A stretch of DNA of 45,636 bases from a virus, in the IMG/VR virus record IMGVR_UViG_3300047380_000731, positions 1 through 45,636 of that record; one strand, written 5' to 3'. Below the pieces are notes generated by a model, which did no database searches, was not told where the DNA came from, and saw nothing but the letters and a program-made list of their open reading frames with translations. The position numbers and the translations under genes are program-made. Below, piece by piece: positions 28,311-35,661 of the stretch (position 1 is its first letter; each line of letters starts with the position of its first letter).

Positions 28311-29624
28311 TTATGTTTTAATTTTTTTACTTACAATTACTTCAGTCTCATCAGAAAATCTAGCATGAGGTCCCACGCCACCTTCTCTAAAAATACCACC
28401 TTCCATTTTACCTTTAAAAATACCGTCTTTGCCAAACACATAACAATTTTTTAAAGTACAACTTCCATGTACGTATGATGATTCTACTTTTGAATCCATA
28501 ATTTCAACACCTTTATATAAATTTGATCTAAGTATTTGTGCTCCTGTAACCTTGCCCCCGTAAATTTCCGAGTTTTCAATGTTACCTGAGATTTCACAAT
28601 CTATAAATTCAAAGTCATTTAATAAGTAAGCAGTTTTAAATATACCATCTTTAACTTGAACAACAGAGTAATCGGAGTCATAGTTAATAGTTCCAGATTC
28701 TAAAGATCCTTCTGATAATAATTCTAAGACTTTTTTCTTAAACCTATTCCATTGTACTCTAATAATCTGCTCAGCATCTTGTAAATCTACTAATATATTT
28801 ATCTTAGGCCAATATTTATTTACGGCGGAATAGTCTTTTAACATTTCCATAAGAGGTCTATTTTTATCTAAAATCCTTTTTAATTCTATTTTATTCTCAG
28901 TCGTAAACACTGGACTATAACAAGATCTCCAAACAGCCATAATAAAAGATTCGGCAAGATGCATAATATCATCATACCTTTTTTCATAATCTTTACCTCC
29001 AATATATCTAAACTCTAAATAATTCTTTTGTGCCTTTTCAAAGTTAATGCCATAATATTTAGTATTAGCAAATGTAAAGTTATCTGAACTAATTAAGTTC
29101 TCATTGTAATAGAATGCTTCGTTTTTTGGCATAACCCATTTAATAGATTTAGCGTATGTCGAATTCTCTCTATTGGGGAAATATTTATAGACTCTCTTTT
29201 CATCAAATTCTAAAATAAACTTTAAAATATTCATTTTAGAAACCATATCAATGTCTTCTAAGTAATCTGGGTTAAAAGACATATTTAAGTGGATAGAGGC
29301 ACGGTCAGTTGTATAACCATTCTCTCTAATCCATCCTAACATTTTCATAATAACAACCCTAGCACTCCTATACGGCATAGGACCTGTAACTAATTCAATT
29401 AGCCCAACACCACCAGACATGTCTGGCTCCATTTTAAAAACTTCTGCGCTTGGTTGAAAATCAGAATGAGCTTTATCTTCTAGCTTAATTTTTCTATTTA
29501 AAAGTTTAGATACAGACTCTTTAGTCTCATCCAGTTCTAAATTAGAATAGAATTCAAACTCGATCCCTATCTGACTACCATTAAGGATCGAGCTTCTTTC
29601 TGACTTTTGGTTTAATTTTTGCAT
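28311..29624 (-). CDS. Amidoligase-like enzyme fused to a C-terminal beta-helix (437 aa)
   Basis: Residues about 15-235 match the amidoligase pattern (COOH-NH2 ligases of the glutamine-synthetase-like fold, which join amino groups to peptides or cell-wall components). Visible motifs are SQIGIEFEFYSNL (paired Glu at 22 and 24), KMEPDMSGGVGLIELVTGPM (Glu77), SIHLNMSF (His112) and NYLEFRYIGGKDYEKR (Glu204, Arg206). Residues about 325-420 are short repeats (NDFEFIDCEISGNIENSEIY; DSKVESSYVHGSCTLKNCYV) like a right-handed beta-helix. A GATATATATT motif lies 23 nt before the ATG. It could modify a virion protein or the host peptidoglycan. The substrate is unknown. Confidence 0.6.
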   Translation of the reverse strand: MQKLNQKSERSSILNGSQIGIEFEFYSNLELDETKESVSKLLNRKIKLEDKAHSDFQPSAEVFKMEPDMSGGVGLIELVTGPMPYRSARVVIMKMLGWIRENGYTTDRASIHLNMSFNPDYLEDIDMVSKMNILKFILEFDEKRVYKYFPNRENSTYAKSIKWVMPKNEAFYYNENLISSDNFTFANTKYYGINFEKAQKNYLEFRYIGGKDYEKRYDDIMHLAESFIMAVWRSCYSPVFTTENKIELKRILDKNRPLMEMLKDYSAVNKYWPKINILVDLQDAEQIIRVQWNRFKKKVLELLSEGSLESGTINYDSDYSVVQVKDGIFKTAYLLNDFEFIDCEISGNIENSEIYGGKVTGAQILRSNLYKGVEIMDSKVESSYVHGSCTLKNCYVFGKDGIFKGKMEGGIFREGGVGPHARFSDETEVIVSKKIKT

Positions 29625-29675: not shown

Positions 29676-30968
29676 TTATTGAGGCATCTTTAAAAATACT
29701 TTCATAGCATCTTCGTCTATTCTTGTAATCTGTACAGTAATTTTATCACCAGAACTAAATACCGACATAGTTTCTGGTGTTAGTTCACTAACATGTAACA
29801 ATCCAGTAATGCCATCTTCTATATTTATGAATAAACCATAATCTTTTTTAGACTTTACAATAGCTTCAACTGTAGATGGTATTGTATATTTTTGTGATAT
29901 ATTTAACCATGGATTAACATTTACAACTTCCTTTTGAGTTAATGTTATTTTAGTATTACTAACAATATCTTTAACCTTAAAATTAATAGAGTCCCCGGGC
30001 TTAATTTCTCTTGATTTAAACTTACTTAAAGTTTCTTCATCTAAATCATTATTATGAATCATACCAGTTAAGCATTTGCTAAATTCAACAAATACTCCGT
30101 ATTTAGCAGTACCTGTTACTTTACCAGTCTTTTCTTCTTCTAAAGTTTGCTTTAAATTTTCTATTTCAGTAGGAATTAACGCCTGTAAATATTTCCTATG
30201 TGATACTACTATTGTACCCCTGTCCGGTGAAAAACTAACCGGAACTACATATAATTCTTCCCCAATTATAGATTCAAAATTAGAAAGCTTATTAATACCT
30301 GCTAAAGAACCTGGCATAAAGCATTTAATTCCTTGTACACTTACGGTATATCCTCCGTTCTCAATCATATTATCGACCTTACCAATCCATGCAGTTCTAC
30401 CCTCTTCAATTGCATCTCTAAGATCCATAAAAGTTTTCTGTCTAACACCACCTGAAATACTTCCAGTTAATGTACCTTTAGTTTCTGTAATTAAAACTGC
30501 AGTTTCATCACCAACAGAAGACTGTCGAACTTCTTCAGATTCTTTTCCAAACTTTACATAGACTAACTCTCTATATCCAATATCAACAGTAATCCAAGTA
30601 CTATCAATTGCATATATTATACCTGCGTGAATTTCACCTACAAAAACATTAGGCTTAATATCCTGGCCGTGCGCTTCCATTTTATCGTATAGCTCTTGTG
30701 CATACGGTTCTCTTGAAAATACCTTATCTCCGTTATTTGTCCTAATGTGGGGGTTTGGTTTCCTATAATGAGTCGGGCAAGTACCTTCGTATTTCTCCCA
30801 AAGAAACTCTCCATTTTCGTCGTAAAATTCTGCGTGTGGGTTTTTAGATTCTTGATCTTCGCTAACTTTAGTGTTTGTGTTAGCTTCTTCTTGTGTAACT
30901 GAAGTAGGATCTGCTACAACTACTGTATTGGCGTCATTGCCAATTCTTCTTCTTTTTTTGTCTGACAT
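29676..30968 (-). CDS. Ribosomal protein S1-like protein with four S1 repeats
   Basis: A 430-residue protein. After a basic start (MSDKKRRRIGNDA) and a charged linker, four S1 RNA-binding repeats follow at about 106-175, 192-262, 278-346 and 362-430. The last two are the clearest: GKVTGTAKYGVFVEFSKCL..GMIHNNDL and EAIVKSKKDYGLFINIEDG..GLLHVSEL. Host S1 (six repeats in Proteobacteria) brings mRNA to the 30S subunit. A phage copy could bias translation toward phage mRNA, protect RNA or serve in regulation. It is preceded by the GATATATAATA motif (36 nt upstream) and stands among late genes. An exonuclease or helicase domain is absent, so it is not PNPase- or RNase-type. Confidence 0.85.
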   Translation of the reverse strand: MSDKKRRRIGNDANTVVVADPTSVTQEEANTNTKVSEDQESKNPHAEFYDENGEFLWEKYEGTCPTHYRKPNPHIRTNNGDKVFSREPYAQELYDKMEAHGQDIKPNVFVGEIHAGIIYAIDSTWITVDIGYRELVYVKFGKESEEVRQSSVGDETAVLITETKGTLTGSISGGVRQKTFMDLRDAIEEGRTAWIGKVDNMIENGGYTVSVQGIKCFMPGSLAGINKLSNFESIIGEELYVVPVSFSPDRGTIVVSHRKYLQALIPTEIENLKQTLEEEKTGKVTGTAKYGVFVEFSKCLTGMIHNNDLDEETLSKFKSREIKPGDSINFKVKDIVSNTKITLTQKEVVNVNPWLNISQKYTIPSTVEAIVKSKKDYGLFINIEDGITGLLHVSELTPETMSVFSSGDKITVQITRIDEDAMKVFLKMPQ

Positions 30969-31004: not shown

Positions 31005-31015
31005 TATTATATATC
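31005..31015 (-). promoter_or_regulatory. Late-promoter-like GATATATAATA motif (S1-like gene)
   Basis: The minus strand reads GTTGATATATAATATG, 36 nt before the ATG at 30968. The core is identical over 11 bases to the motifs at 1576 and 15953. It touches the stop codon of the preceding 700-aa gene. Confidence 0.5.
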
Positions 31016-33116
31016 AACCTATTTTCTTTAAAAAATTATTAATCAATTCTAAGTCTTTTATATCTTTTTGTCTAATAGACTTCTCTGTTAAAATTTTTAT
31101 ACGAGTTCTATTATACTTAAATTGTTTTAATATAGATAATGACATGAATTTCATACCGTAATGATAGAAATAGTTTTCTGGGTTATTTATTATATCCTTA
31201 ATAGAATATCCTAATCTTTCAAACTCTGGTCCATGTAGTCTATTTTCACATCCAAATTCATTAGAATTGTTATGAACGTAACCATCGACATGTAAAAAAT
31301 CTACATCAGATGTGTCTCTAATACCATAGGCTCCTAAAGTTCCACCATTATCAACGCAAAAATTATCATTATTAGTAGGTAACCAGTCATGATATAACTT
31401 TAAACACCTATCGAAAGTAGGTAAACTTTTAATAGTTCGTTGATTAATAAAATCGAAAGTATTTTTATGTTTAATCATGTTTATATGTCGTATACTTTCG
31501 ATATTATATTCTTCTTCAGAAACCTTACAATTGCACTGTTGACCTAAATGTATATGACAATCAGGATCCGAAACGTGAAAGGATGTTTTATCAATTCCTA
31601 ATTTATTTCTTGTGTCATATTTCCATTTTTTTATTTTTTCGTGTAGACGTTCACCAGTAAATATGTATGCTGTAAATTCATCGTTCTGTATCCTTTTATC
31701 AGTCTCTTTAATTAAATTGACTTCCCACCAAGGCTTTCCGTAATGAATTTGGTCAAGTAAATTATACCTACCATTATTATATAATTTTACTTGTACGATC
31801 TCTTTAACTTGTCCAATCGATTTAAGTTCATTAATAATTCTTTGATCGTTTTTCCATAAAAACAAAACTGATATACTTTCTTTGTTCGTTTTAATTATGT
31901 TATATTCACTTTGAGTTTCTTTTAATGATTTTATTATTTCTAGAGATGCTACTTTTAAATTTCCAAAATAAAAATGATTGTTAGGGTTGAAAATAATATC
32001 ATCTCTGTCTTTAGAATATTTTTCAGGTACATACTCATTATGTGATCTAATATCACTATTACCTTGTATGGTATGTGAATTAAAATGTAAGTAATCTAAA
32101 TCTTTACCTTCTCTTAAACCATATATCGAAAGAACAGAACTTCCAGTAATGCAATAATCTTCAATGTCTAAATTATTTTTAATGAGATATTCTTCATAAT
32201 AATTTATTTGTGATTGAAAATTGACATATTTTTCTAACTTTGAATTATTTAAAAAATGAATGCTATTTTCATTAAATAAACATCTTGCTAGACGTAAGGT
32301 TTCTTCAGGAGTATCATTAATATGAACTGAATGGTTTCCGATACTATACACTTTTCGTATTTCTTCTTTAAGTTGTCTAGCGATTTTTAAATCAGATAAA
32401 TTTACTAAGTAAACTACCATTGGAGTAGTTTCATTAGTAAAACATAATCTTGCCTTCTCTCTAAATCCAGCAAAATTATTTGACCAACCTCCTGCCCACG
32501 CTTCTCCTTTATACAGTTGAAGCATATAATTAAACGCACCTGTATTATTAAGCCATATATCCTTTTTATATGAAATTCCACAGTATTTAGAAATAATATT
32601 TTCTACTACAGTTCTACTATGTGTCGCTGCTGGAAATAAACTAATAATAAGATGTTCTTCGGAATTAAGTCTAGCAAGTTCTAATGCAGCAGCGTCTTTA
32701 TACTGCTGAGAAAGGTTTAAGTTATTAAACATTCTATAGTCACATATTTTTTGACCATCTCTATTTAACTCACTTCCGATTTTACACTCAACATGCTTTT
32801 CTAATAAACTCGCGGATGTAACTCTATGTGCTCCATTTAGTAAGAAATCATTATTATCTATTACTACCGGTGACTTTTCCCAATTAAAATTATTATTTTT
32901 TATATCATTAAAAATATTAATAAAATCAGATTTAAAAGCATCGTACGTGTTTTTATTAGGATTGCCGTATTCTTTAAAATTATTCCATAACTTTAAATGC
33001 TCCTTATATGCGTTTTCAGCAAAATCAGATTTAATACCTTTACTATAAAACTTTAAAAATAAATGCTTTATAGGTAAGTCAAATCGATTCCACTTAAATA
33101 ATTTTTTTGCGATCAT
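31014..33116 (-). CDS. ParB-like N-terminus plus two tandem nucleotidyltransferase-like modules (700 aa)
   Basis: Residues about 80-115 (VVIDNNDFLLNGAHRVTSAS) match the ParB/sulfiredoxin-type 'G.HR..A' motif. The rest looks like an internal duplication, unit 1 about 155-400 and unit 2 about 412-690. Corresponding segments are FNYMLQLYKGEAW / YNLLDQIHYGKPW, NHSVHINDTPEE / KTSFHVSDPDCH, NSIHFLNN / FDFINQR, and HFYFGNLKVASLEIIKSLK / YFYHYGMKFMSLSILKQFK. Each unit has a nucleotidyltransferase-fold signature G[GS]-x(11-12)-DhDhLH: GSSVLSIYGLREGKDLDYLH at 325 and GGTLGAYGIRDTSDVDFLH at 591. It could transfer a nucleotide or modify sugar, DNA or protein. The real activity is unknown. It lies in the accessory block with its own motif-bearing leader. 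Confidence 0.6.
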   Translation of the reverse strand: MIAKKLFKWNRFDLPIKHLFLKFYSKGIKSDFAENAYKEHLKLWNNFKEYGNPNKNTYDAFKSDFINIFNDIKNNNFNWEKSPVVIDNNDFLLNGAHRVTSASLLEKHVECKIGSELNRDGQKICDYRMFNNLNLSQQYKDAAALELARLNSEEHLIISLFPAATHSRTVVENIISKYCGISYKKDIWLNNTGAFNYMLQLYKGEAWAGGWSNNFAGFREKARLCFTNETTPMVVYLVNLSDLKIARQLKEEIRKVYSIGNHSVHINDTPEETLRLARCLFNENSIHFLNNSKLEKYVNFQSQINYYEEYLIKNNLDIEDYCITGSSVLSIYGLREGKDLDYLHFNSHTIQGNSDIRSHNEYVPEKYSKDRDDIIFNPNNHFYFGNLKVASLEIIKSLKETQSEYNIIKTNKESISVLFLWKNDQRIINELKSIGQVKEIVQVKLYNNGRYNLLDQIHYGKPWWEVNLIKETDKRIQNDEFTAYIFTGERLHEKIKKWKYDTRNKLGIDKTSFHVSDPDCHIHLGQQCNCKVSEEEYNIESIRHINMIKHKNTFDFINQRTIKSLPTFDRCLKLYHDWLPTNNDNFCVDNGGTLGAYGIRDTSDVDFLHVDGYVHNNSNEFGCENRLHGPEFERLGYSIKDIINNPENYFYHYGMKFMSLSILKQFKYNRTRIKILTEKSIRQKDIKDLELINNFLKKIG

Positions 33117-33126
33117 ATGTTTTTAA

Positions 33127-33173
33127 TTAATGCTGCATAATATATATCACCTTTATTTTAGTTGCAGCATTAA
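33127..33173. repeat. 11-bp perfect inverted repeat in the leader of the 700-aa gene
   Basis: Arms TTAATGCTGCA (33127-33137) and TGCAGCATTAA (33163-33173) are separated by 25 bp. The GATATATATTA motif abuts the proximal arm, so in minus-strand direction the order is arm, motif, arm, ATG. It could be an operator flanking a promoter or an RNA hairpin in the leader (proximal arm 11 nt before the start). Confidence 0.6.
33138..33148 (-). promoter_or_regulatory. Late-promoter-like GATATATATTA motif (700-aa gene)
   Basis: The minus strand reads GGTGATATATATTATGC, 21 nt before the ATG at 33116, enclosed by the 11-bp inverted repeat. It shares the GATATATA core of the window's other putative late promoters. 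Confidence 0.45.
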
Positions 33174-33265: not shown

Positions 33266-33679
33266 ATGAATAAACAATTTAACTATAAAGAAATCAAATG
33301 TAACGGGGTTGGTGGTTCAGGCTATCAAGCCGTTCTTAAACACAAAGACCAGATTCAATCTATTTGCCAAGAGGTTCGAGACTTACTAGGCGATAAACTC
33401 TGGGATAAAATGATTAAGCAAGCATCTGAAGTAGATACTTATACTGATTATCATTCAGGTATTAGATATAACAGTGTAGAAGATAATGCTTACAGATTGG
33501 TTACTGGAATTGCTGGACATGTATCTTCTTACCTTGACTCTGATGAGCTAATTGAGATGCACGTAGGCGCAGTTCTAAACAATCTAACTATTGACGAAAA
33601 GGTTTATATGGTTCTTGATGCTCTTCGCGACTGTGCGTCCGCAGACCATTGGTATACTTTCGAAAAGGACTGGGGTTAA
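33266..33679 (+). CDS. Hypothetical protein (137 aa), plus-strand island
   Basis: A 137-residue protein (MNKQFNYKEIKCNGVGGSGY; IQSICQEVRDLLGDKLWDKM). No family is recognised. It is predicted soluble and helical, with acidic and aromatic residues and no motif. It is transcribed against the flanking genes from the duplicated promoter at 33211. Its stop codon overlaps the stop of the convergent 661-aa gene by the four bases TTAA, leaving no room for a terminator. The promoter class suggests early expression. Confidence 0.8.
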   Translation: MNKQFNYKEIKCNGVGGSGYQAVLKHKDQIQSICQEVRDLLGDKLWDKMIKQASEVDTYTDYHSGIRYNSVEDNAYRLVTGIAGHVSSYLDSDELIEMHVGAVLNNLTIDEKVYMVLDALRDCASADHWYTFEKDWG

Positions 33680-35661
33680 AATACAATCGGTACAAAACCT
33701 ACCATAGGAACTGGTCCAGCAGGAGTTGGAATACCACCAAGATAAAGCAACTTAAATTCTAGTAGATGCAGGGCATAGGCTCCTGCAACTGCTGTTGCTG
33801 TAGCATTCGATGCTGGCGCTTGAGTTCCAGGTGTTGCAAAAGACTTACCTGTATTCCAAGCTCTTCTCAGATTATTTGCTAGACGATTTGCACTTCCATA
33901 ATAGATTGGAATGTAAATTCCTGTTAAAGGTGCTGGAATCAACGCGGGTGGTGCAGATGGAGTTGGCGTAAACGGTTTAACAATACAAGCATACCAATAT
34001 GCAATTGTCACTCTAGCCATCATCATATATGGATCTCCAGAATAAGTCTTACCGCCTGGAGTTGTGCCACTTGGGTCCCATGGATGTGGAACTTCAGTCA
34101 TTGGCTCTTCACAGTTTTCAGCAGCTCTAATCGCACATAAAACTCTATGGTATTCAAATTTATATTGAGTACCTGCTTCACCACCACTAAAATTATCTCC
34201 ATTCCAACCTAGAGCTAAGAATGCATAGCCAGGTTTTGACTTACCCATAAACTTAAGATCGTCACTAGCCCTAGCAGCTGCATCTAATTTACCTTCAGGT
34301 GGAGTCCTTCTCCATTTTTTTTCATACTCAAACTCTTCATATTTTTGCCTTACCCATGAAGTAGTCTTTTGATACTTAACAGCGTAAGATGCATTTGACC
34401 AAAATGTAGCTTTTGCATTATTAATCACATACGGAGTACCTCCAGTTCTTTTATTAGGGTAGTATGTGAAAGTTGCAACAACGTTTGACGTTAATATTTT
34501 AGGTCTTTGGTTTACATACAAGTCTTCATAGTCCTTTTCAAAATCATAGGCTACCTGTATTTTATATGGATTAATAGGGCAGAAGTCTGGAGTAATATCT
34601 TTACCATTGGTATTAGTTAATATAGGGAATTCAACTTTATTTTCTGGATTTCTAGAAATTCTTTTCTTTATTACAGAATCATACCCAATTGCATATCCAT
34701 CAGTATCTTTTTCCGGATGCATATTTAAAATAGCAAACTTCACATAACTAGAAACTTTATCCGCTAGTTTTTTATAGTCGTAGCCTGCGTCTTCAATATC
34801 ATTTCGTGCTTTAGAGCTAATATTTTGATAAGCACTAGAATTATTTGTAGTAGAAGTACTATTGTAATTCTCTTTTCCTAAATGACATGCCCATACGAAA
34901 TAATCCCATCTAGATGTAGAGCTAGTCATAAATTCATAACCCATTAAAATCCTAGCCGCAAAGATAACTTCTAATTCTTCTTGAGTTTCATTACCTGTTA
35001 AACATGGAAATTGATAAAACTTAAATTTATATAAATTATAGTTCTGTATATTTTCACCATTTGTAAACGCATTAAATGCTTTATTGTTTTCAGCCTCAAG
35101 TTTAGCTAAAGCTTCTGCGTCAGGCTCTTCAACTTCTGGGCAGAAATCAGCATACGCGGGATGTGACTCTTTGCCCATTTCAATTAGGTTACCATCCTCA
35201 TCGTATTGGTCTTGTAAAGGTATATCACCCTCTCTTAATAATCTTTCAAACGCAATTCCATAACCTTCTTTTAATAAGGTTTCTGCAGCTGGTGTATTAG
35301 TATGTGTTTCGGCTACATGTGTTTGTGCTAAACCTTTAATAGCATCTAAATAATGTTGAGCAACTTGTTTACCAAAATCATATCTACCCGAAAGAGGCTC
35401 TGTACTATTAGCATTAACCATTGTAGCTGGGTTAGTCGCTAGAGTTGCATTAGCAGGATTACCAATAGGTGGTGTCTTGCCACTTAAAATACTTAATTGC
35501 TCTAATGGTTTACCGTCCTCATCTACTGATTTACCTAAAACTTTAGTTGCACCAACTGAAGGCGGCTCATAAGAAATTACTGCCCCACCTGGTTTAGTAA
35601 ACTGCTGGCTTTGTAACGTACTCGCTAATGCTGGAATAAATGTTCCCCAATTCGCTGGCAT
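33676..35661 (-). CDS. Virion structural protein after the spike (661 aa)
   Basis: Not recognised. The N-terminus (PANWGTFIPALASTLQSQQF) leads into a Thr/Ala/Gly-rich segment (residues about 25-90, NPANATLATNPATMVNANST). A mixed domain follows with many Tyr and Trp (YNLYKFKFYQFPCL; SRWDYFVWACHLGKEN). The C-terminal part is Pro/Ala-rich and hydrophobic (TPTPSAPPALIPAPLTG; GAYALHLLEFKLLYLGGIP). It starts 2 nt after the spike gene, at the end of the hub block, so a baseplate hub-associated protein is likely. A tail-lytic enzyme would be expected near here, but no lysozyme, peptidase or amidase motif is visible. Confidence 0.6.
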   Translation of the reverse strand: MPANWGTFIPALASTLQSQQFTKPGGAVISYEPPSVGATKVLGKSVDEDGKPLEQLSILSGKTPPIGNPANATLATNPATMVNANSTEPLSGRYDFGKQVAQHYLDAIKGLAQTHVAETHTNTPAAETLLKEGYGIAFERLLREGDIPLQDQYDEDGNLIEMGKESHPAYADFCPEVEEPDAEALAKLEAENNKAFNAFTNGENIQNYNLYKFKFYQFPCLTGNETQEELEVIFAARILMGYEFMTSSTSRWDYFVWACHLGKENYNSTSTTNNSSAYQNISSKARNDIEDAGYDYKKLADKVSSYVKFAILNMHPEKDTDGYAIGYDSVIKKRISRNPENKVEFPILTNTNGKDITPDFCPINPYKIQVAYDFEKDYEDLYVNQRPKILTSNVVATFTYYPNKRTGGTPYVINNAKATFWSNASYAVKYQKTTSWVRQKYEEFEYEKKWRRTPPEGKLDAAARASDDLKFMGKSKPGYAFLALGWNGDNFSGGEAGTQYKFEYHRVLCAIRAAENCEEPMTEVPHPWDPSGTTPGGKTYSGDPYMMMARVTIAYWYACIVKPFTPTPSAPPALIPAPLTGIYIPIYYGSANRLANNLRRAWNTGKSFATPGTQAPASNATATAVAGAYALHLLEFKLLYLGGIPTPAGPVPMVGFVPIVF

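Follow-up and report, generated by a model that had tools for sequence, protein, structure and literature searches.

A putative glycan-modifying family of viruses and bacteria that combines ParB-like, NDK-like and nucleotidyltransferase-like domains

What kind of protein is encoded by a lone 700-residue reading frame among the tail genes of a virus? The question was raised by a preliminary description, made from the letters of IMG/VR record IMGVR_UViG_3300047380_000731, and the whole stretch of 45,636 nucleotides is called the window here. The ORF lies at 31014-33116 on the minus strand and starts with ATG, so its coordinates had been given correctly. The protein as a whole showed no match in Pfam, NCBIfam, PHROGs, PDB sequences or named phages, and one whole-protein search listed four rows, all with an E value of 2 or worse. 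The features discussed below are collected in Table 1.

Table 1. Positions of the features in the window
Feature	Position	Strand	Basis
Whole gene, 700 aa: ParB-like + [NDK-like + NTase-like] x 2	31014..33116	-	
ParB/sulfiredoxin/SerK-like N-terminal domain, residues 1-149	32670..33116	-	GxHR motif, PHROG ParB model
NGAHR motif within the ParB-like domain	32823-32837	-	
NDK-like domain, copy 1, residues 150-292; R254, H265, D268	32241..32669	-	AlphaFold model of single-unit allele
NTase-like domain, copy 1, residues 293-404; motifs I/II kept (GS, R-x3-D-h-D)	31905..32240	-	
NDK-like domain, copy 2, residues 413-555	31452..31880	-	sequence alignments, leave-out profile
NTase-like domain, copy 2, residues 556-700; GG, R-x3-D-V-D, K-x2-R, KDIKD	31017..31451	-	
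Recombined block	31048..32246	-	DNA comparison with relative L004
Perfect inverted repeat, 11 bp, 25-nt loop, intergenic leader	33127..33173 (arms 33127-33137 / 33163-33173)	.	

Matching segments recur in the two parts of the protein, and the motifs quoted in the preliminary description were all confirmed at their places. NYMLQLYKGEAW at residue 196 pairs with NLLDQIHYGKPW at 452, HSVHINDT at 262 with TSFHVSD at 511, GSSVLSIYGLREGKDLDYLH from 325 with GGTLGAYGIRDTSDVDFLH from 591, and FYFGNLKVASL at 382 with FYHYGMKFMSL at 650, while NGAHR occupies residues 94-98. Local alignment (BLOSUM62) of residues 1-412 against residues 413-700 scored 198, compared with 43 +/- 7 and a maximum of 87 in 500 shuffles. 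Copy 2 was also recovered by profiles built from 38 other family members with both window copies excluded (i-E 2.8e-27 for the NTase-like part and 2.6e-7 for the NDK-like part). The internal duplication that had been proposed is borne out by these independent tests. The repeat unit consists of two domains, an NDK-like domain followed by an NTase-like domain, and a ParB/sulfiredoxin-type GxHR domain stands in front of both units. An earlier reading of the unit as one nucleotidyltransferase module was right in that both units carry NTase-type motifs and had overlooked the NDK-like domain. The description had also spoken of a tandem duplication of about 260 residues. The repeat exists, and a simple tandem origin does not hold, since identity between copy 2 and its eight best family matches is no higher than 25-31%; by the same figure a recent tandem duplication is ruled out, and these alignments mark copy 2 as an old or imported copy.

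A search with hmmsearch over 153 loci found 154 ORFs of the family, which represent 70 distinct proteins, including some fragments and near-duplicates. No Pfam, NCBIfam or PHROG model that was tried spans the whole unit, and titles and abstracts of open PMC papers held no description of the three-domain combination among the matches listed. Judged by these searches, the unit defines an undescribed family. Among the 70 distinct proteins, two units occur only in the window protein and the identical L002. A direct viral search returned this identical allele from one other IMG/VR record, together with two contigs that carry a 422-aa single-unit allele at the same locus and share 99.97% identity across 11,319 bases. 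When viral contigs were searched by pattern with copy 2 alone, only the identical allele was returned and no other relative. Three members tried against 50,697 named phage records gave no match. In a pattern scan of cellular genomes, one Thioclava genome was found. Of 337 genomes of its class, two gave near full-length matches, the centre genome and a second one whose copy has one internal stop; in its phylum only the centre genome itself matched among 398 genomes (E<=1e-10). Three plasmids match, from Jannaschia, Ilyobacter and, over half the length, Paracoccus. At the sensitivity used, the family looks rare in cells.

The N-terminal domain had been called ParB/sulfiredoxin-like on the strength of NGAHR, and the family agrees with this. 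Among 53 aligned members, H97 and R98 are present in all 53 and N94 and G95 in 52 each. The PHROG ParB model matches 10 of 45 members, weakly, with a best E of 1.3e-5. This GxHR may be the equivalent of the SerK motif. The domain differs from the ParB/sulfiredoxin/SerK fold families in that PF02195 matches none of the 45 members at E<=1 (it is not among the 21 Pfam families matched) and no HTH family is among their Pfam matches at that threshold. A 2025 survey of ParB folds based its search for fusions on PF02195, the model that matches none of these members, and its main text makes no mention of nucleoside diphosphate kinase, nucleotidyltransferase or glycosyltransferase (PMC12704722).

For the second domain, an AlphaFold (AF2) model was made of the single-unit allele L004, whose first two domains are 99% identical to those of the window protein. 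Using the 53-sequence alignment, the model reached a pLDDT of 95.2 and a pTM of 0.93, compared with a pLDDT of 32 from the single sequence. The top 30 PDB rows from Foldseek comprised 19 titled NDK or NME and 11 ciliary or microtubule complexes, whose matching chains we presume to be NDK-like; the best E was 3e-3, with none below 1e-3. In a VIA search, the 50 PDB rows listed had Z scores of 11.8-13.0 and an rmsd of 2.5-3.5 over 115-133 residues, covering about residues 153-285 at 13-23% identity. According to this model, residues ~153-285 have the NDK alpha/beta (ferredoxin-type) fold. R254, H265 and D268 are invariant in all 53 aligned members. H265 lies on strand 264-266 of the model, and H265 and D268 align with the NDK His and Asp in a profile alignment with 11 NDKs, a set of mixed ORFs with weak scores. 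The paired HSVHINDT and SFHVSD segments of the preliminary description correspond to this NDK active-site strand. When the NDK-like profile was compared with 30 NDKs using hhalign, it scored 20.8 against 12.3 +/- 2.3 for shuffled profiles, of which 1 of 60 scored as high; the program's own values were weak (probability 2.7%, E 0.017).

The likeness to NDK (PF00334) lies in the predicted fold, in the H and D that never vary on the active-site strand, and in the upstream R. The differences are that the domain is fused between two other domains and that PF00334 is not among the 21 families matched by the 45 members at E<=1. In the NDK of M. tuberculosis, an Asn (N114) stands three residues ahead of the catalytic His (PMC7554756). 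The corresponding position 262, which is Asn in NDKs, is H in 49 of the 53 aligned members, S in 3 and N in 1. The first-strand Lys of NDKs (K10) may, by eye, fall at F161 (F in 50 members, H in 2 and W in 1). The model has little room for a Kpn loop, with ~6 residues between helix 243-257, if this is alpha3, and strand 264-266. Because the Asn ahead of the His is replaced and space for the Kpn loop is scarce, the domain need not be a working NDK. Copy 2 of the NDK-like domain retains the equivalents of W207, K250, R254, H265, D268 and N284 and has lost those of Y202 and C225, while the equivalent of K221 depends on the alignment.

The third domain had been assigned the NTase fold. Sequence motifs and profile comparison speak for this assignment, and no structure match stands behind it: none of the 50 VIA PDB rows listed for the L004 model spans residues 293-422, no ParB, AbiEii or other NTase chain was recognised among the 50 PDB rows listed per whole-model search, an outcome that does not count against these folds, and family and per-domain profile searches of PDB sequences gave no meaningful match. 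R-x3-D-h-D is present in all 53 aligned members; ahead of it, position 325 is G in 27 and A in 18, and position 326 is S in 52 of 53. The K-x2-R..+DxxD of motifs III and IV, with Q allowed for +, is present in 51 of 53. The two exceptions are window copy 1, which lacks both motif IV (+DxxD) and the arginine of motif III, and L032, which runs off its contig. By one alignment, 9 of the 14 positions that are invariant in the unit are unchanged in copy 2, to which other alignments add K221 and H359; the H359 equivalent is a gap in one alignment and H in another.

Motifs I-IV have been defined for AbiEii/DUF1814, together with their mutational importance (PMC3985639). The NTase-like profile scored 21.9 against 56 AbiEii proteins using hhalign, compared with 9.6 +/- 1.6 for shuffled profiles, of which 0 of 80 scored as high, and the alignment falls on the catalytic GG..R..DhD. 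As for the NDK comparison, the program's own values were weak (probability 3.4%, E 0.013). These comparisons comprised one run with 30 NDKs and 7 AbiEii proteins and a later run with the 56 AbiEii proteins; the domain alignments were subsets of the 53-row set, with 40, 40 and 39 rows, and copy 2 was part of the first two. Wrong domain pairings scored lower than NDK-like against NDK, and one such control, ParB-like against AbiEii, had a score that few shuffles attained (2 of 60 and 2 of 80). In the AbiEii set, G[GSA]..R-x3-DhD is present in 44 of 56 proteins and +DxxD in 43 of 56, counts that are biased upwards because the set was seeded with motif-bearing proteins. The family resembles AbiEii/DUF1814 (PF08843) in its G[GS]..R-x3-D-h-D, K..R and +DxxD and in a profile score above all 80 shuffles. 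It differs in several respects. PF08843 matches 0 of 45 members at E<=1, the domain has ~110-130 aa compared with 238 positions in the model, the K-R spacing of motif III is shorter than in the KLxAaxxR of AbiEii, and the domain is part of a multidomain protein.

AbiEii is a toxin of phage abortive-infection systems (PMC3985639), so the motif match could mean that the protein is an anti-host factor. During infection, its AbiEii-like NTase would then modify a host target (tRNA, protein or nucleotide), under the regulation of the other domains or with nucleotide supplied by them. The position of the window gene as a lone accessory gene would suit such a role. No antitoxin-like partner was noticed in the loci read by eye, and relatives are fused to GT2 domains and located in bacterial glycan clusters, which makes this explanation unlikely. 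An anti-host or anti-defence role had been offered in the preliminary description alongside a modifying enzyme for sugar, nucleotide, protein or DNA. The glycan context of the relatives speaks for sugar, and nothing beyond the AbiEii-like motifs was found for the anti-host or anti-defence part.

Comparison of the DNA of the window with that of L004 provides a view of how the second unit may have arisen. The first ~290 codons are about 99% identical, the identity collapses at the NDK/NTase boundary, and it returns for the last 11-12 codons, which are nearly identical, and for the spacer downstream, which matches at 54 of 54 nt. Farther out, identity in the flanks is 97.7-99.3%, apart from a diverged neighbouring 661-aa gene. 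In L004, the counterpart of the recombined block is about 340-360 nt long and encodes one different NTase-like domain. The identities of the two proteins are 0.99, 0.99 and 0.51 for the ParB-like, NDK-like and NTase-like domains, and the drop from the NDK-like to the NTase-like domain is the largest among 2145 family pairs. The NTase-like domain of L003 is nearer to that of L043 (0.63) than to that of the window (0.51). The pattern fits an event in which an NTase + NDK + NTase block took the place of a single NTase domain and left the original end of the gene intact. Since all other members have a single unit, the direction of the swap is taken to be a gain in the window. Motif IV, lost in copy 1, reappears at the end of copy 2. 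The second NDK + NTase pair was probably gained by recombination, so that copy 1 would have the complete set of NDK-like residues and copy 2 alone the complete NTase motifs. That two nearly identical phages differ by a domain swap hints that selection may act on a specificity domain.

These losses could instead mean that the window protein is a decayed, recombined and catalytically dead copy. Copy 1 is without the motif III/IV residues kept in nearly all members, and copy 2 is without at least the equivalents of Y202 and C225. Against decay, the frame has stayed open over 700 codons and is identical in another IMG/VR record, both copies have the D-x-D and the equivalents of H265 and D268, and the losses are complementary. 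We therefore consider a dead remnant improbable.

The surroundings of the gene were compared with those in other phages. A PHROG scan of 34 window proteins (E<=1e-5) recognised tail, baseplate and replication families, and no glycan genes were recognised elsewhere in the window. The helicase and baseplate proteins of the window have their best match in the phage collection in LR756500.1 (462 kb), with further matches in other huge phages and in Tenacibaculum, Sphingomonas and Prevotella Lak phages; by these protein matches, the window virus is related to jumbo phages. LR756500.1 has orthologues of the genes flanking 31014-33116 on both sides in the same order, with ~131 bp separating the open frames at the spot that the gene would occupy, and the family profile finds nothing in the 20 kb around the corresponding place. 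Because LR756500.1 keeps the flanking order without the gene, the comparison identifies 31014-33116 as an accessory gene inside a conserved tail-gene block, in line with the accessory block that had been suggested. Tail and baseplate families make up most of those recognised in the window, which might point to a structural or assembly part of the tail. A tail part would not be expected to be missing from the corresponding place in LR756500.1, or to have three enzyme-type domains and homologues in glycan loci of other viruses and bacteria, and we regard this explanation as very improbable. An inverted-repeat leader had also been ascribed to the gene. The repeat exists, and it is not striking, with a folding z of -1.5 on the strand of the gene and -2.8 on the opposite one.

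Several neighbouring genes were recorded in passing. The adjoining 661-aa gene at 33676-35661 (-) is 84% identical to its L003 counterpart over 537 aligned columns and elsewhere unalignable, and LR756500.1 has at its place an unrelated ORF with no detectable similarity. A 137-aa gene on the opposite strand at 33266-33679 (+) has no family match with E below 0.09 and was not found at the corresponding place in LR756500.1. The 437-aa protein of 28311-29624 (-) has a borderline amidoligase match (PF12224, E 2.5e-4, 21.4 bits compared with a cut-off of 22) and a repetitive C-terminus that is possibly beta-helical by eye; its LR756500.1 homologue is 41% identical. The 430-aa protein of 29676-30968 (-), in the tail-gene region, has two S1 RNA-binding stretches and is conserved in LR756500.1. 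To our knowledge, an S1 protein amid tail genes is unusual.

The relatives of the window gene are placed differently, and members from three bacteria lie in glycan clusters. In Thioclava, this is an exopolysaccharide-type cluster, as read by eye. Annotated glycosyltransferases and sulfotransferases surround the Jannaschia member, and the annotated exopolysaccharide cluster of Ilyobacter to which the family gene belongs also encodes a polyprenyl glycosylphosphotransferase, Gmd and GDP-L-fucose synthase. L010 and L014 are in phage cassettes with glycosyltransferases, an epimerase, methyltransferases, an aminotransferase and a GDP-mannose dehydratase (read by eye, partly backed by Pfam). Near neighbours in viral loci were scanned with Pfam, using 142 of 161 dereplicated proteins from 176 in 46 loci. 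The counts were GT2 11, Epimerase 8, Polysacc_synt_2 8, GT10 6 and GT1 6; the families overlap, and each tally lists up to 25 families without assignment to members. Genes more than 4 kb away in the same loci (n=127) gave GDP_Man_Dehyd 10 and GT10 7, with GT2 not among the families listed. The far genes are about as rich in glycan enzymes as the near ones, so the association is with the region and not with one partner, and no local specificity is claimed. In all 42 viral loci where the gene has a neighbour on each side, the two neighbours share its strand and mostly overlap it or lie a few bases from it, in a count for which ORFs were chosen mechanically.

Fusions also connect members with glycan enzymes. 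An N-terminal extension of >150 aa is present in 16 of the 70 distinct proteins (some of them near-duplicates), and all 16 match GT2. In three 946-aa ORFs (L041, L026 and L027) the GT2-matching extension is ~530 aa long, compared with ~240-270 aa in the other fusions, and possibly includes a second enzyme domain. When the L004 model was searched against a predicted-structure library, six matches at E<=1e-3 were obtained, all to giant-virus proteins. Three of them extend over 337-360 alignment columns (E 1.5e-13 to 3.8e-11, TMq 0.57): A0A481Z0W0 of Mimivirus LCMiAC01, which is uncharacterised, and A0A5K0UAL1 of Yasminevirus and A0A1V0SAX2 of Catovirus CTV1, which are annotated as glycosyltransferases. 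Their predicted structures match the family across more than one domain, at 16-19% identity, a likeness that comes from predicted structure. The annotation of the latter two parallels the GT fusions in phages. Members thus recurrently share a location or a reading frame with glycan genes, and the window locus is an exception.

Glycosyltransferases of phages are also able to glycosylate DNA (PMC12619734), and phage ParB-fold domains are often fused to DNA methyltransferases (PMC12704722). By this account the ParB-like domain would bind DNA, and the NTase and the glycosyltransferases would build a hypermodified base. The Ilyobacter member, which adjoins genes for polyprenyl glycosylphosphotransferase, Gmd and GDP-L-fucose synthase, does not suit DNA modification, and no such family is prominent among the Pfam and PHROG families listed, which is weak evidence. 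DNA modification seems to us quite unlikely.

Because of the NTase-like domain and the glycan context, the best reading is a glycan-modifying phospho- or nucleotidyl-transferase, of which the substrate, the chemistry and the division of labour are inferred. We lean, somewhat beyond an even chance, towards an undescribed glycan-locus family of ParB/sulfiredoxin (SerK)-like, NDK-like and AbiEii-type NTase-like domains that probably adds a phosphate-linked or nucleotidyl-derived group to a glycan. The acceptor would be made by the neighbouring or fused glycosyltransferases. The ParB-like domain may bind or hydrolyse NTP or act as a small kinase, the NDK-like domain may pass on a phosphoryl group by way of the invariant H265, and the metal-binding D-h-D of the NTase-like domain would carry out the final transfer. 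The benefit would be an altered glycan on the surface of the virion or the host. LicD/fukutin glycan phosphotransferases (PF04991), described as NTase-fold enzymes that add phospho-linked groups to glycans, are a working analogy only, and none of the 45 members matches LicD at E<=1.

A bolder version, which we put forward as speculation and rather doubt, is a new class of glycan phospho-modifying enzymes that phages and giant viruses would share with a few bacteria. A degenerate NDK would stand between the NTP-binding ParB-like domain and the AbiEii-type NTase and serve as a phosphohistidine relay. The C-terminal NTase would then be an exchangeable specificity module, so that near-identical phages would make different surface groups, and the window protein would have two such modules. 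If the glycan-modifying reading is true, surface polysaccharide loci of viruses and bacteria would contain a phosphate-chemistry step that is unrecognised by the family models tried, and the NDK and ParB folds would be extended to glycan modification. A bacterial glycan cluster would then be a tractable test case for the genes of phage glycan cassettes.
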